A DNA stretch of 54,026 nt from Cytophagales bacterium. GTDB taxonomy: Bacteria; Bacteroidota; Bacteroidia; Cytophagales; Cyclobacteriaceae. The position numbers were made by a program, and so were the translations under genes. The stretch covers positions 1 through 54,026 of the forward strand of contig JAKSDO010000241.1 in assembly GCA_022360055.1 (NCBI GenBank). Direction: 5' to 3'. The notes beneath the pieces are model-generated. The model made no database searches. It was not told the DNA's origin and saw only the letters and a program-made list of their open reading frames with translations. Positions 17,866 through 22,917 of this stretch are shown here, one piece after another (position 1 is the stretch's first letter; each line of letters opens with the position of its first letter).

Positions 17866-18573
17866 TTATAGATGAAGACCACATTCAGTTTTTACTGTTT
17901 GTGCCCATCTTCCTTTTCTTTTCTTTCCTTTTAACGTACAATGCTTACATCCTATGGATTCGTAGCCTAACGGTTTCAATGGATGTACAGGCAAATTGTT
18001 CTCTTCTATAACCCTTAAAGCTTCTTCTTCGGTAACATCAAGGATCGGATAAAACTTGATAACTCCTTTTTTTTCCTCAAATATATTGAGTCTTTCCCTA
18101 TGACTACTTTGCCAGGACATCAGCCCGGAAATCCATAACTCGTATTTATCTCTAATTTTTTCAAATGGTTCTACCTTATTAATCTGGCAGCATTGATCCG
18201 GGTCGTACCTCCATAATTCTCCCAATTGAGAAAACTCGTTTTGCTCTTTGTCGGGAATAATATCAATTACTTTAAGGCCAAACAAGTTAGTAAGTTTTTC
18301 TTTATATTCCAGCGTTTCTTTGAAATGATATGTTGTATCAATGAAATGAACCGGCTGACTTATTTTATTTCTGTAAAAAAGATAGAGCTGGAACACGGCC
18401 GTGGTCCCAAATGATGAAGAAAGCAGGATATTGTCGAAGTCATTGTAGATTTCTACAATCCTTTCGTCCGGGGTGAGTTTTTGATATTTCTCATTCAACT
18501 GGTGCAAGTCTGGCTTTTTCACAGAAACGTGTAATGGATTAATAAGAGGTTTATTTTTTACTGCGGCGATCAT
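17866..18573 (-). CDS. cysH: assimilatory APS/PAPS reductase
   Basis: Adenylyl-sulfate or phosphoadenylyl-sulfate reductase, 235 residues, reducing activated sulfate to sulfite in the cytoplasm. Family motifs are SSSFGTTA (nucleotide-binding loop), WQSSHRERL, and the C-terminal KTECGLH with catalytic Cys231. It also has a CC pair (Cys128-Cys129) and CxxC (Cys209, Cys212). That four-cysteine set binds a 4Fe-4S cluster in the APS-using subtype, so APS is the more likely substrate. The start overlaps the stop of the siroheme synthase gene by 4 bp (ATGA), and it is the last gene of the sulfur operon. Confidence 0.93.
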   Translation of the reverse strand: MIAAVKNKPLINPLHVSVKKPDLHQLNEKYQKLTPDERIVEIYNDFDNILLSSSFGTTAVFQLYLFYRNKISQPVHFIDTTYHFKETLEYKEKLTNLFGLKVIDIIPDKEQNEFSQLGELWRYDPDQCCQINKVEPFEKIRDKYELWISGLMSWQSSHRERLNIFEEKKGVIKFYPILDVTEEEALRVIEENNLPVHPLKPLGYESIGCKHCTLKGKKRKGRWAQTVKTECGLHL

Positions 18574-19160
18574 GCTATGGGCTTTTTCGATACAAAAGAC
18601 GAAGTAAGTTCATTCAAGGCATTTACCTTTTGTTGAAAATCTCCTTTTAAATTATTTCTGAAAGCATTAAGGTTGTCGACAAGATCCTGAATTGTGTCAG
18701 GGAGTAATTCTTCCATGTATTCTCTAAATCGTTTTGCAAATGTAGGTGATTTTCCATTGGTGCTAATGCCGATTTTCAAGTCTCCTTTTTGCACTACCGA
18801 ACCCAGATAAAAATCGCATAAATCGGGCGTGTCAGCCACGTTTGTCAATATTCGTCTACTTCTGGCAACGGTTTTTATTCGTTCATGAAGTTTGCGATTG
18901 TTTGTCGCCAACATGAGAAGATCTTTACCATGCAGGTCACTGAAAAAGAACTTTCTTGTCAGAATCCTGATATTGTTGTTGCTTTTCGCAATCTCAAGAA
19001 TCTCATCGCAAACACTTTCTGCAATAACAGTCACTTTTGCTGCCGGGCTGTTTTTTAATAGTGCGTTTAATTTTTCCAATCCTACGGGACCTGCACCTAC
19101 AAGCAGGGTTTGTAGGTTTTCGAGCTTCAGAAATATTGGGTATAATTTATTCTGTCCCAT
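18570..19160 (-). CDS. precorrin-2 dehydrogenase / sirohydrochlorin ferrochelatase
   Basis: Met8/CysG-N-type siroheme synthase of 196 residues. It oxidises precorrin-2 and inserts iron to make siroheme, the cofactor of the sulfite reductase encoded in the same operon. Visible features are the NAD-binding loop VGAGPVGLEKL near the N-terminus, TNVADTPDLCDF in the middle, and the segment SVVQKGDLKIGISTNGKSPTFAKRFREYMEELLP that marks the family. It lies 10 bp after cobA and overlaps cysH by 4 bp. The methyltransferase half of a CysG is not fused here but is encoded separately just upstream. Confidence 0.92.
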   Translation of the reverse strand: MGQNKLYPIFLKLENLQTLLVGAGPVGLEKLNALLKNSPAAKVTVIAESVCDEILEIAKSNNNIRILTRKFFFSDLHGKDLLMLATNNRKLHERIKTVARSRRILTNVADTPDLCDFYLGSVVQKGDLKIGISTNGKSPTFAKRFREYMEELLPDTIQDLVDNLNAFRNNLKGDFQQKVNALNELTSSFVSKKPIA

Positions 19161-19170
19161 CTCTAATATT

Positions 19171-19947
19171 CTATTTGTGTTTTAAATAGGAATTCACGAG
19201 GTCGCCAAATTCCTCTTTTTTAGTAAATCTGACAATCTCACCAACAACAATTATTGCCGGAGACGACAATCCATTTTCCTTCACCGTTTCGGAAATCGTA
19301 GCAACAGTTCCCAATCCCAACTTTTCATCGGGCTGGGAACCGTTTTGTACGATTGCTACAGGAGTATTTTCTTTGCCGGAAGCTTTAAACACTTCCATGA
19401 TACTGGTCAGGTTTTTCATTCCCATTAGTATGATCACCGTAGCGCTGGATTTGGCCGCAAGTATCAGATCTTCCGAGAATTCTCCGGATGCTGTCGTACC
19501 TGTAACCACCCAAAAGCTGTTGGAAATCCCTCTGTGCGTCAATGGAATATGCTGAAGGGCCGGAACGGCCAAAGCGCTGCTTACCCCCGGGACAACTTCG
19601 GTTTTGATTCCGTATTTAGCGGCGTTGTTTATTTCTTCCAATCCCCGGCCAAAGACAAAAGGATCTCCTCCTTTCAGTCGAACAACATGTCGGCGGTTTT
19701 TGGCATACTTTACGATCAATCGGTTGATCTCGTGTTGTTGAAGATGATGCAATCCGGCCCGTTTACCAACAAATATTTTTTTTGCTCTTGCCGGGGCATA
19801 GTGGAGAAGCTCTTCATTCGAAAGGGCATCGTACAGAACGACATCTGCTTCAGCCAGAGCTTTAATCCCTTTTACGGTAATCAAATCGGGATCACCGGGA
19901 CCGGCGCCGACAAGCGTCAGTTTTGCACGATGTAATTTCTTATTCAT
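19171..19947 (-). CDS. cobA: uroporphyrinogen-III C-methyltransferase
   Basis: SAM-dependent methyltransferase of 258 residues that makes precorrin-2 from uroporphyrinogen III. Motifs include LVGAGPGDPDLITVKG at the N-terminus, VVRLKGGDPFVFGRG, VVPGVSSALAVPALQHIPLTHRG and LMGMKNL, all standard for the CobA/SUMT family. It begins 2 bp after the sulfite reductase stop, so translation may be coupled. Its product feeds the siroheme synthase encoded next. No other cobalamin genes are in view, which points to siroheme rather than B12 as the end product. Confidence 0.95.
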   Translation of the reverse strand: MNKKLHRAKLTLVGAGPGDPDLITVKGIKALAEADVVLYDALSNEELLHYAPARAKKIFVGKRAGLHHLQQHEINRLIVKYAKNRRHVVRLKGGDPFVFGRGLEEINNAAKYGIKTEVVPGVSSALAVPALQHIPLTHRGISNSFWVVTGTTASGEFSEDLILAAKSSATVIILMGMKNLTSIMEVFKASGKENTPVAIVQNGSQPDEKLGLGTVATISETVKENGLSSPAIIVVGEIVRFTKKEEFGDLVNSYLKHK

Positions 19948-19949
19948 AA

Positions 19950-22073
19950 CTAAACAGCCTCGGCAACTTTGCTATTCCTGACGGATCTTATTTCATTCAA
20001 AAAAGCTTTTGCCCTTTTGAAATATTCGCTCGCAAATTCTTCGGTCGGTTCGTTTTTACTGATTTGAAGAACATGCTCTTTGAAGGAGCCTTCGATGAAA
20101 TTGAAAGTACCCGTTTCAACAAAAATTCGATCAAAATCATTGATTACAGACATGTGTGAATTGTTCTTAACGTTCTCACCCAGTAACATGGCTTTTGCGC
20201 TATTCACAAAAACATTATAGCTGTGATAGACCGAATCCGAATACAGACCATTACTCAATGTCTCTTTAGCCCACTCCAGTTTTTCATCAGAATCAAACAA
20301 TAAAGTTGATACCAAATCGATAATTACTCCGGCGCATTCACCAACAGCGGTTTGCACAACAAATTTATGTTCTCGTCCCCAATCGATGTAATCGGTTTCA
20401 TTCAATTCATTCAGATTGGCCAGCGGTTTCAAAAGATTATAAAAGTACATCTTGCCTTGCCTTTTGAAATAATCTTTGAAATACTCACCGTCATTTCCGT
20501 TGGCATCGTAATCATCTAAAATTGTCCGTAACGTATCCGGGGCCTTTTTACTCGGAACCTTCACTACGCGCTCGGCCACTTCACCTTCTCCGTCCGAATT
20601 CACACCACCTCCAAGCATTACCTGAACTGCCGGCAATACGTTCAGGCCGTTTTTCATCGAGCTTCCATGGAAACCGATACTAGCCATGCCGTGCTGACCG
20701 CACGAATTTGGACAACCGCTGATTTTTATTTTCAGATCATTGTTATGAATTAAATCAGGATACTCATTTTTGATAACTTCCTCAAGTGCTTTTGCCAATC
20801 CCGTACTGCTGGAGATTCCGAGGTTACACGTATCTGTTCCCGGGCAGGCCGTAATGTCTGCAGGAGAATCGAAACCAGGCTCAGCAAGCCCGACACGGTT
20901 TAATTCATTGAACAATGGTTTTAATGCATCTTTTCTGATGAACTTAAGCAAGTATCCCTGGTTGACAGTAATTCTGATATCGTCTGCGGCATATTTCTCT
21001 GCTATATCGGCAAATCTCCGTGCCAGATCGGAGGACATATCCCCCAACAACAATTTTATATAAACGCCATAGTATCCTTTTTGCTTTTGCTCAAAAACAT
21101 TGGTTTCAAGCCATTTTTCAAACTTCGCAACATCCTCAACCTTCACAGATGAATAATCACTATCCTCCGGAAGTTTAGGTGTGCTGACAAACGATGCATG
21201 GTCTACCTTGAATGTTTTTACTTTTAATGCCTTTTGCTCTTCTGCAACAAGGCGTAATAGTGCTTCCAATCCAAGATCGTTTAAAAGAAATTTCAACCTG
21301 GCCTTTTGTCTTCGGGCTCTTTCTCCAAATCGGTCAAATACCCTTAAAACTCCTTCAATAAATGGTATGAGCTGATCTTCTCCTAAAAACTCATAAGCCA
21401 ATTTGGCCAGAAAGGGCTGAGCACCCAATCCGCCGCCAATATAAACTTTAAACCCTCGGATCTCCCGGCCATTTTCGATCCTTATTTTAGGGATTATCCC
21501 AACATCGTGAATGAAAGTAAATGCAGAATCTTCCTCACTTGAGGATAACGCAATTTTGAATTTTCTTCCCATTTCCTGGCAAACCGGATTTCTAAGGAAA
21601 TATTCAAAAATTGCATGCGCATACGGACTCACGTCAAAAGGCTCATTGGGATCAATACCTGCTTTATCCGATGCAGTGACATTCCTGACTGTATTTCCAC
21701 ATGCTTCCCGAAGGGTAATGTTGTCCTGTTCCAGTTTCGCCCACAGTTCCGGCGTTTTGTCCAGGCTCACATAATGGATCTGAATATCCTGGCGCGTGGT
21801 GGCATGAAGCTTGCTGCTCGCATATTCATCAGACAGGTCTGCAATTCTCCTAAGCTGACGAAACGACATTTTTCCATAGGGAATTTTAATCCGGACCATC
21901 TGTACGCCGGGTTGACGTTGCCCGTATACACCCCGGGCAAGACGAAGGGCCCTGAATTTCTCCTCATCGATTTTCAAATTTTTAAACTTGGCGATTTTAT
22001 CGGCAAGATCAATGATGTCGTTTTCGATAATCGGATTGTTTAAATTTTCTAATTCACTCCTGAAACTTAGCAT
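19950..22073 (-). CDS. sir: ferredoxin-type sulfite reductase with C-terminal helical extension
   Basis: Siroheme and 4Fe-4S hemoprotein of 707 residues that reduces sulfite to sulfide. The two half-repeats of the nitrite/sulfite reductase fold fill residues ~40-540. Cluster ligands are Cys410 and Cys416 (TACPGTDTC) and Cys454 and Cys458 (GCPNSCG). The motif HATTRQDIQIH lies near residue 90. Residues ~560-700 are an extra all-helical domain, HEPN-like in appearance, which standard ferredoxin-dependent enzymes of about 560 residues lack. Nitrite reduction cannot be excluded from motifs alone, but the operon (siroheme synthesis, CysH) and the Cys-rich leader favour sulfite. Confidence 0.9.
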   Translation of the reverse strand: MLSFRSELENLNNPIIENDIIDLADKIAKFKNLKIDEEKFRALRLARGVYGQRQPGVQMVRIKIPYGKMSFRQLRRIADLSDEYASSKLHATTRQDIQIHYVSLDKTPELWAKLEQDNITLREACGNTVRNVTASDKAGIDPNEPFDVSPYAHAIFEYFLRNPVCQEMGRKFKIALSSSEEDSAFTFIHDVGIIPKIRIENGREIRGFKVYIGGGLGAQPFLAKLAYEFLGEDQLIPFIEGVLRVFDRFGERARRQKARLKFLLNDLGLEALLRLVAEEQKALKVKTFKVDHASFVSTPKLPEDSDYSSVKVEDVAKFEKWLETNVFEQKQKGYYGVYIKLLLGDMSSDLARRFADIAEKYAADDIRITVNQGYLLKFIRKDALKPLFNELNRVGLAEPGFDSPADITACPGTDTCNLGISSSTGLAKALEEVIKNEYPDLIHNNDLKIKISGCPNSCGQHGMASIGFHGSSMKNGLNVLPAVQVMLGGGVNSDGEGEVAERVVKVPSKKAPDTLRTILDDYDANGNDGEYFKDYFKRQGKMYFYNLLKPLANLNELNETDYIDWGREHKFVVQTAVGECAGVIIDLVSTLLFDSDEKLEWAKETLSNGLYSDSVYHSYNVFVNSAKAMLLGENVKNNSHMSVINDFDRIFVETGTFNFIEGSFKEHVLQISKNEPTEEFASEYFKRAKAFLNEIRSVRNSKVAEAV

Positions 22074-22096: not shown

Positions 22097-22130
22097 AAAA
22101 AAAGCCTTTCGCGAATTCGAGAAAGGCTTG
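22097..22130 (-). terminator. attenuator terminator in the sulfur-operon leader
   Basis: Read leftwards, AAGCCTTTC and GAAAGGCTT (22129-22121 and 22110-22102) make a 9-bp stem around a CGAATTCG core, followed by seven T residues (22103-22097). It ends about 23 bases before the sulfite reductase ATG, so it lies inside the leader and would switch off the whole operon if formed. Confidence 0.85.
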
Positions 22131-22196
22131 AGTTACATCCTATTTTTTTATTTACTATCACAAAACATTTTGGATTGAACCCAATGCACCTCTCTC
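22119..22196 (-). promoter_or_regulatory. predicted antiterminator pairing
   Basis: GAGAGAGG, coded by 22196-22189 inside the leader ORF, can pair over all eight positions (one G-U) with CCTTTCTC at 22126-22119, the 5' arm of the terminator. A second pairing, GATTGAATCC (codons 4-7 of the leader ORF) with GGGTTCAATC (codons 35-37), encloses the Cys codons. These are alternative folds as expected for attenuation. They were drawn by eye, without energies. Confidence 0.6.
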
Positions 22197-22286
22197 AAAA
22201 TTTTGCATACAACAACACCAGTGCCAACAGGCACACCGCTTTGATGCCGAAAATTTTTGGTTAACAGGATTCAATCTAATGCTCAT
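22158..22286 (-). CDS. Cys-rich leader peptide of the sulfur operon
   Basis: A 42-codon ORF with an ATG at 22286 and a TGA at 22158-22160, sitting between the Fur gene and the sulfite reductase gene. Its centre reads RCACWHWCCCMQ: five Cys codons and two Trp codons in ten positions (residues 18-27), while the flanks hold no other cysteine. It ends 28 bases before the terminator hairpin. This is the classical arrangement of an amino-acid-responsive leader peptide: scarcity of charged tRNA-Cys would stall the ribosome at the Cys run and change RNA folding downstream. The operon makes sulfide, the precursor of cysteine, so the codon choice fits. An upstream TTG could extend the frame to 22343 but adds only ordinary sequence. 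Confidence 0.75.
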   Translation of the reverse strand: MSIRLNPVNQKFSASKRCACWHWCCCMQNFERGALGSIQNVL

Positions 22287-22340
22287 ATGATGAATTTTTC
22301 TATGATCGAAATGCAATTTTACTGCTTTAAAATTTAATAT

Positions 22341-22348
22341 CAAAAATA
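22341..22348 (-). promoter_or_regulatory. candidate -7 promoter element of the sulfur operon
   Basis: On the minus strand TATTTTTG matches the Bacteroidota -7 motif TAnnTTTG, about 55 bases before the leader-peptide ATG. I find no good -33 TTTG at standard spacing, so this is tentative. Confidence 0.35.
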
Positions 22349-22461: not shown

Positions 22462-22917
22462 TCAGCTCTTTTTTTTCTCCGGATTGTTTAGATGACCATA
22501 GAAATAAAGCGAATGGCTGGTAACGGTAAAATCAAATGTTTCTTCCACAAGTTTCTGAATTTCCATGACTCTTGGATCACAAAATTCAAAGATCTGCTCC
22601 GTATCCGTACAAATCACATGATCGTGTTGCCTAAATCCATGGGACTTTTCGTATAAGGAAAGATTTTTGCCAAACTGATGCTTCTTCACCAGATCGCACT
22701 CAAGCAGCAAATCGAGGGTATTGTATACGGTCGCCCGGCTTACACGGTAATTTTTATTTTTCATATTGATGTAAAGCGATTCTACATCAAAATGTCCGTC
22801 ATTGGTGTAAATTTCTTCTAGAATTGCAAAGCGCTCCGGTGTTTTGCGAAGTTCTTTTTCTTCAAGATATTGCCGAAACAACTCCTTAATTTCTTCAAAT
22901 TTATCGGGTGCGATCAT
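22462..22917 (-). CDS. Fur-family transcriptional regulator
   Basis: Metal-dependent repressor of the Fur/PerR/Zur family, 151 residues. It has the N-terminal winged helix ([14 protein letters not shown] ... [13 protein letters not shown]) and the metal-binding HDHVICT motif with FEFCDPRV after it. The C-terminal CxxC structural zinc pair found in many members is absent, as in some Fur proteins. Whether it senses iron, peroxide or zinc is not decidable from sequence. It is transcribed in the same direction as the sulfur operon but separated by ~390 bp with its own leader, so it is probably independent. A CobW-type GTPase is encoded nearby on the other strand, which makes a zinc or iron link possible. 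Confidence 0.9.

Follow-up and report, generated by a model that had tools for sequence, protein, structure and literature searches.

In Proteobacteria, attenuators of the his, trp and leu type combine a leader open reading frame (ORF) with codons of the pathway, an antiterminator that competes with an intrinsic terminator, and an upstream hairpin. Cysteine leader peptides have been predicted ahead of the cys operons of Actinobacteria, and no terminators are described for them in the excerpted text (PMC1262725); for mycobacteria, translation attenuation is attributed to Canestrari 2020 in the relevant portion of PMC13236596. In Rhodobacterales, the uORFC-8-2 motif is a predicted leader with two tandem Cys codons, followed by an intrinsic terminator, upstream of the cysteinyl-tRNA synthetase gene cysS (PMC8632094, as excerpted). 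Within Bacteroidota, leader-peptide attenuation has been inferred for amino-acid operons of Flavobacterium psychrophilum, and the excerpt names neither a Cys leader nor a sir operon (PMC9723704). A sequence-only reading of the locus described here knew of no such described system in this phylum; in agreement with it, a search of the open-licence literature gave no report of a leader peptide that controls sulfur assimilation in any member of Bacteroidota.

The locus lies in a contig of 54,026 nucleotides from a Cytophagales bacterium of the family Cyclobacteriaceae (hereafter, the window), where a Cys-rich leader precedes a sulfite reductase operon. From its sequence and from comparison with relatives, we consider it very probable that this leader is a ribosome-mediated transcription attenuator of the operon, reading the supply of charged Cys-tRNA. 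Like the his, trp and leu attenuators, it has clustered regulatory codons in an ORF (whose translation is inferred from synonymous variation), a terminator ahead of the first gene, a conserved antiterminator that shares the 5' arm of the terminator, and a predicted upstream hairpin. It differs from them in its Cys codons, in the sulfur assimilation operon that follows, in its occurrence in Bacteroidota and in the tandem copies found in several relatives; moreover, in its own genus the antiterminator segment lies well ahead of the stop codon. The uORFC-8-2 motif shares the order of Cys-codon leader and intrinsic terminator, whereas the alphaproteobacterial examples in the excerpted report (PMC8632094) precede cysS and the leaders described here precede sir (as in the window) or cysM-like genes, with clusters of three or more Cys codons that in other lineages are often mixed with Met codons. 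Similarly, the actinobacterial leaders have runs of Cys codons upstream of cysteine or sulfur operons but no terminator in the description available (PMC1262725), and the polycysteine small ORFs of mycobacteria are likewise defined without one, whereas the window leader has an intrinsic terminator. Cys leader peptides as such are thus already known from Actinobacteria and Rhodobacterales; what is unusual here is how widely they occur, together with their tandem arrangement, the presence of Met codons and a conserved Trp-bearing core.

The leader, its terminator and the operon in the window

The features of the locus, all on the minus strand, are the following, in the direction of transcription.

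22341..22344, minus strand: candidate -33 element TTTG, 19 nt ahead of the -7 element (conserved alignment columns and consensus)
22314..22321, minus strand: candidate -7 element TAAAATTG, with five of the six specified bases of the Bacteroidota consensus (conserved alignment columns)
22158..22286, minus strand: Cys-rich leader peptide ORF of 42 codons (list of reading frames; core kept in relatives)
22267..22276, minus strand: 5' arm of the enclosing stem P1 (3 of its 10 pairs have both partners changed in a comparison of seven near leaders)
22209..22235, minus strand: regulatory codons Cys-Ala-Cys-Trp-His-Trp-Cys-Cys-Cys (sequence; core across 22 leaders)
22188..22199, minus strand: antiterminator segment, or region 2, with an 8-bp core (duplex fold, pair counts, permutation)
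22173..22182, minus strand: 3' arm of P1 (same seven near leaders)
22097..22129, minus strand: intrinsic terminator including its U tract; the antiterminator uses the same 5' arm (minimum free energy fold, terminator search, RNAalifold)
19950..22073, minus strand: sir, sulfite/nitrite reductase family protein of 707 aa (Pfam NIR_SIR and NIR_SIR_ferr)
19171..19947, minus strand: cobA, uroporphyrinogen-III C-methyltransferase of siroheme synthesis (above the NCBIfam cut-off)
18570..19160, minus strand: cysG(N), siroheme synthase N-terminal domain protein (TIGR01470, above cut-off)
17866..18573, minus strand: cysH, phosphoadenylyl-sulfate reductase (NF002537, above cut-off)

The ORF, its spacing and its two pairings had all been proposed by the sequence-only reading, and each was recovered. 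The 42 codons, which translate as MSIRLNPVNQKFSASKRCACWHWCCCMQNFERGALGSIQNVL, run from an ATG at 22286-22284 to a TGA at 22160-22158; the ORF list opens this frame at a TTG further upstream, with the ATG inside it. The terminator, AAGCCTTTCTCG-AATT-CGCGAAAGGCTT at 22129-22102 with a T-run at 22103-22097, starts 28 bases past the ORF and ends 23 bases ahead of the sir ATG (22073). It was returned by the minimum free energy fold, by a dedicated terminator search and by RNAalifold, and was absent from the list of a simple terminator scanner. The eight-position pairing joins GAGAGAGG (22196-22189), which begins 12 nt past the last Cys codon, to CCTTTCTC (22126-22119) in the terminator; duplexfold lengthens it to 12 pairs with an energy of -15.9 kcal/mol, where shuffles average -7.5 (p 0.003). 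The ten-position pairing that encloses the Cys codons, P1, joins GATTGAATCC (22276-22267) to GGGTTCAATC (22182-22173), and near relatives show compensatory changes in it. The energy folding that the same reading had called for shows the terminator in the minimum free energy structure, and the leader RNA is more stable than its shuffles (z -4.27; none of 200 as good).

At gathering score, the Rfam covariance models found only a tRNA elsewhere in the window, and neither a riboswitch nor a T-box; the best match in the leader region was PyrR, with 21.8 bits against a gathering score of 54 (E 0.9), and an Rfam identity was rejected. Similarly, no NCBIfam model matched the leader peptide.

The gene order sir-cobA-cysG(N)-cysH bears out the siroheme/sulfite reductase operon named in the sequence-only reading, and is a sulfate/sulfite reduction set. 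The NCBIfam sir models match below their curated cut-offs, and the name sulfite reductase therefore rests on the Pfam domains and on the siroheme and cysH neighbors. The candidate -7 element is to be compared with the consensus TAnnTTTG given for Bacteroidota in the excerpt of PMC7366714; this candidate promoter would place the transcription start near 22306. Directly upstream of the attenuator, on the same strand, lies a gene for a Fur/PerR-family regulator (22462-22917, minus strand).

Conservation of the peptide and of the pairing

The sir gene was sought in 79 relatives and matched in 48. In the genus of the window, all five further sir loci that were fetched have the leader, with the core SASKRCACW[HY]WCC, and a sixth genome (G005) has a covariance-model match of 137.8 bits just upstream of sir. 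A degenerate pattern of the core was found in 44 stretches among GTDB contigs. Of these, 18 come from Bacteroidota, and every one of the 18 lies just upstream of sir, which is its next long frame; Imperialibacter and Microscilla are among the genera with this type of leader. In the 26 stretches from other phyla, sir is next in none (two have no next frame inside the stretch), and these look like chance frames. As a separate observation, two Aliivibrio species (L034, L062) share a short frame, SACWYWCCNCFWF, unrelated to sir and maybe due to chance, which in L062 lies, by eye, about 10 nt upstream of a sugar-kinase-like gene.

Over 22 leaders the core reads R[C/R][A/E]CW[FYH]WCC. Its Arg is present in all 22 and uses six codons; the following position is Cys in 19 and Arg in three; Ala is present in 21, with four codons, and replaced once by Glu; Cys and Trp are invariant, as are the Trp-Cys-Cys that follow a Phe, Tyr or His. 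Since residues are nearly fixed while synonymous codons vary, selection appears to act on the peptide, which points to translation of the leader frame. A chance ORF was rejected on this conservation and on a strand control (below). A hairpin, GUGCC-UGUU-GGCAC, was also considered as the cause of core conservation and was rejected: by eye, it is present in the own genus and absent from the Phe-bearing cores.

The Trp-aromatic-Trp of the core is conserved although simple codon counting has no need of it. This bears on a different reading of the leader, as an arrest or sensor peptide in which nascent R-x-A-C-W-[FYH]-W-C-C would stall the ribosome on a ligand (cysteine, sulfide, a metal or thiol stress) rather than through simple lack of Cys-tRNA. 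The joint conservation of Arg, Ala and both Trp with the Cys residues favors it, as does the fact that most of the remaining peptide cannot be aligned beyond the genus. However, what other families keep is only clusters of Cys (and Met), variously arranged and followed by the same layout; this agrees with codon supply rather than with a fixed peptide or metal motif, and we consider an arrest peptide distinctly unlikely.

Both pairings were compared among relatives. In seven near leaders, P1 scored together with the terminator has a covariation score that none of 500 shuffles reached. In 18 leaders, the antiterminator helix is 90.9% paired, a value matched by 2 of 500 shuffles, and its covariation score was equalled by four; two of its pairs have both partners changed, and 227 of the 500 shuffles have at least as many. 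Among the matches listed for covariance model R1, 11 have at least 96 bits, all of them at sir leaders (the window's own included), and many weaker ones span the terminator half only.

In the genome of the window, the sir leader is the only one found among runs of four Cys codons, the R1 matches listed and the stretch upstream of the gene similar to O-succinylhomoserine sulfhydrylase (OSHS). Of 32 matches to four consecutive Cys codons (TGYx4), 30 were examined by eye and none was leader-like; R1 counted eight further matches in this genome, with E up to 0.5; and no poly-Cys leader lies upstream of the OSHS-like gene.

The statistics on layout cover 71 leaders (41 from a first set and 30 at class level), selected because they had a Cys cluster and a terminator that could be located; they are therefore not a random sample, and some genera or genomes contribute several. 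Left out as weak, later noticed or lacking a terminator were L027, L030 (which has the core as in the window and no terminator found), L077, L081, L093 and L140, as well as the first leader of L105 and the terminator-less poly-Cys leaders L115, L116, L118, L121, L158 and L159. The offset from the last Cys codon to the start of the antiterminator segment, taken as the best partner of the terminator's 5' arm, has a median of 12 nt (interquartile range 9-14.5) and falls within 5-20 nt in 63 of the 71, against 42% in shuffles. Given the geometry of the ribosome, a segment so placed would stay free while a Cys codon occupies the A site.

The antiterminator pairing beats mononucleotide shuffles (p<0.05) in 31 of the 41 leaders of the first set and in 20 of the 30 at class level; in the other 20 of the 71, no antiterminator better than shuffles was found at this threshold. 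When terminators were swapped among the first 41 leaders, native pairs gave -12.9 kcal/mol and swapped pairs -9.9. Since many terminators share the motif AGCCTTTCC, this control was supplemented by a permutation over all 71: the summed free energy of leaders with their own terminators is -945.6, against -703.9 (sd 20.8) when permuted (z -11.6), and none of 20,000 permutations did better, relatedness being ignored in this test.

The comparison that the sequence-only reading had proposed thus came out in its favor: the Cys cluster and the pairing of antiterminator with terminator are kept, the enclosing stem is kept near home and there are compensatory changes. Its interpretation as a Cys attenuator is supported by this conservation of cluster, pairing and layout.

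Folding with a ribosome on the leader

When Cys-tRNA is scarce, the ribosome would stall in the Cys codons and leave free the segment that begins 12 nt downstream. This segment could then pair with the 5' arm of the terminator as the arm leaves RNA polymerase, before the 3' arm is made, and the antiterminator so formed would allow readthrough into sir-cobA-cysG(N)-cysH. With ample Cys, translation would continue to the stop codon, the antiterminator segment would be masked or held within P1, the terminator would form and transcription would end. P1 probably plays the part that the 1:2 pause hairpin has in trp-type attenuators.

Truncated and full-length RNAs of 41 leaders were folded with a ribosome footprint. 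In 31 of the 41, a ribosome stalled at the first Cys codon lets the antiterminator form (P at least 0.8) while the 3' arm of the terminator is still to be transcribed; in 12 of those 31, the antiterminator is lost (P 0.04 or less) when the ribosome stands at the stop codon instead. This classical logic is seen, for example, in L015, L018, L022, L083, L105, L110, L112 and L013. In the group of the own genus (seven leaders), the antiterminator segment ends 17-27 nt ahead of the stop codon, and a ribosome there leaves the antiterminator at P 1.00 in six and 0.65 in the seventh (L007); with no ribosome, P is 0.51-1.00.

In full-length RNA with no ribosome, the terminator has P of at least 0.68 in 40 of the 41 leaders, and placing a ribosome on the first Cys codon brings the antiterminator to P 0.5 or more in just three of them (0.02 in the window leader). 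Equilibrium folds thus favor the terminator despite a stalled ribosome, and they do not explain the off state in the own genus. Since the terminator wins in full-length folds, readthrough must be decided before its 3' arm is made; the switch would be decided during transcription, through steric effects of the ribosome between the arms, through P1 or through the kinetics of terminator formation.

A terminator favored at equilibrium would also be expected of a fixed partial terminator, or of the end of a transcript from the upstream fur-like gene, which lies on the same strand, with the ORF playing no part. However, the core is conserved and translated, and antiterminator and spacing are matched to the terminator; in addition, the upstream gene varies in length and strand among relatives while the leader stays, and in the window the fur-like gene lies about 330 nt away from the terminator, with a candidate promoter in between. 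We consider either form of this alternative highly improbable.

Breadth, methionine codons and other genes

The order-level sample comprised 241 genomes, 136 with a sir match, and the class-level sample 198 genomes, of which 48 matched at E 1e-100. Loci were taken from the search of 79 relatives (30) and from the order sample (26 new ones), together with 60 further stretches from those two genome sets (some of them longer versions of loci) and 40 at class level, all fetched from part of the matching genomes. After deduplication, 128 upstream gaps of sir with a length of 130 nt or more were available, nine of them fetched through the motif itself. A frame with at least three Cys in ten codons is present in 68 of the 128 on the sir strand and in 16 on the opposite strand; with at least four Cys, the numbers are 55 and five, and 47 of 119 on the sir strand without the nine motif-fetched gaps. 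The three-residue rule applied to other residues gave none for Trp and ten for His. Under this rule no Cys leader was found in 60 of the 128 gaps, and the system is therefore not universal. Leaders were seen in the family of the window, in several other families of its order and in eleven families outside the order; in the class sample, leader and terminator stand directly before sir in 19 of 40 stretches, and one (L200) has two further upstream.

Met codons are frequent inside the Cys clusters. Within the clusters and two positions to either side, 111 of 448 non-Cys residues are Met, against 78 of 1664 elsewhere, and without the Trp-core clade the counts are 95 of 274 against 60 of 997. By sign, again without this clade, enrichment is seen in 40 leaders against five (p 8e-8, uncorrected for relatedness). 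In L227, L228 and L224, Met codons are interspersed with Cys codons, as in MCMCMCMCCCM. The mixed clusters suggest dual sensing, so that leaders of other lineages perhaps sense both Cys and Met.

Serial pairs of attenuators, with one terminator per leader, were found in L015, L083, L197, L198, L200, L201 and L206, and likewise in L207, L214, L218, L220 and L226. L105 is also tandem, and no terminator was found for its first leader.

Cys leaders are not restricted to sir. A cysM-like gene, sought in the 79 relatives, gave 12 matches at E 1e-60, none in the genus of the window. Cys leaders precede it in seven relatives (L262-L268; 58-100% identical), twice in tandem; three of these loci (L262, L264, L267) were first noticed through their leaders and the other four independently. 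An eighth locus (L269, 55%) has no Cys leader, nor do four distant homologues (38-40%), except for a weak frame with three Cys in L273. Among the cysM leaders, the antiterminator beats shuffles in five of nine and fails in four. In the three loci that were read, a JAB-domain (Mec-like) gene follows the cysM-like gene, with the domain assigned for one.

A second kind of leader has a cluster of four to eight Cys codons at its end and precedes an OSHS-like gene or its ferredoxin partner, in seven of 30 loci against one of 30 on the opposite strand; those with terminal poly-Cys are L104, L107, L108, L110 and L141. Before sir, poly-Cys leaders with as many as ten consecutive Cys codons are found in L115, L116, L118, L121, L158 and L159. 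No intrinsic terminator was found for these leaders, whose final 4-10 Cys codons lie at the stop codon or close to it, and in the stretch that follows these terminator-less leaders C exceeds G in 11 of 11 (percentiles within loci 0.85-0.998). Their arrangement resembles the actinobacterial one and may, judging from base composition, be of a Rho type.

These leaders, together with the absence of terminators from the excerpted description of actinobacterial Cys leaders (PMC1262725), are what speaks for control acting mainly on sir translation, as for the mycobacterial polycysteine ORFs, or on Rho access, instead of on an intrinsic terminator. However, an intrinsic terminator with a matched antiterminator is present in the window and in the 71 leaders (for which the terminator was a criterion of selection), and for this locus such control has a very small probability.

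A broader possibility is a class-wide regulon of sulfur-amino-acid attenuators in Bacteroidota, in which the R-x-A-C-W-[FYH]-W-C-C peptide would arrest the ribosome according to sulfur status, as a sensor beside the Cys and Met codons, and tandem units would combine Cys and Met supply. We regard this extended scheme as speculative and rather unlikely.

Recurring ahead of sir in many families, and in some also ahead of cysM-like genes, such a leader switch would be a simple answer to the control of sulfur assimilation, and these leaders offer a ready set of sensors for cysteine and perhaps for methionine. Branched-chain leaders are known to read several amino acids of one pathway; similarly, a leader with Met codons within its Cys clusters may respond to both of these amino acids. 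The tandem arrays may act as attenuators in series, and the Trp-bearing core raises the question of whether a leader that reads codon supply can double as an arrest peptide.
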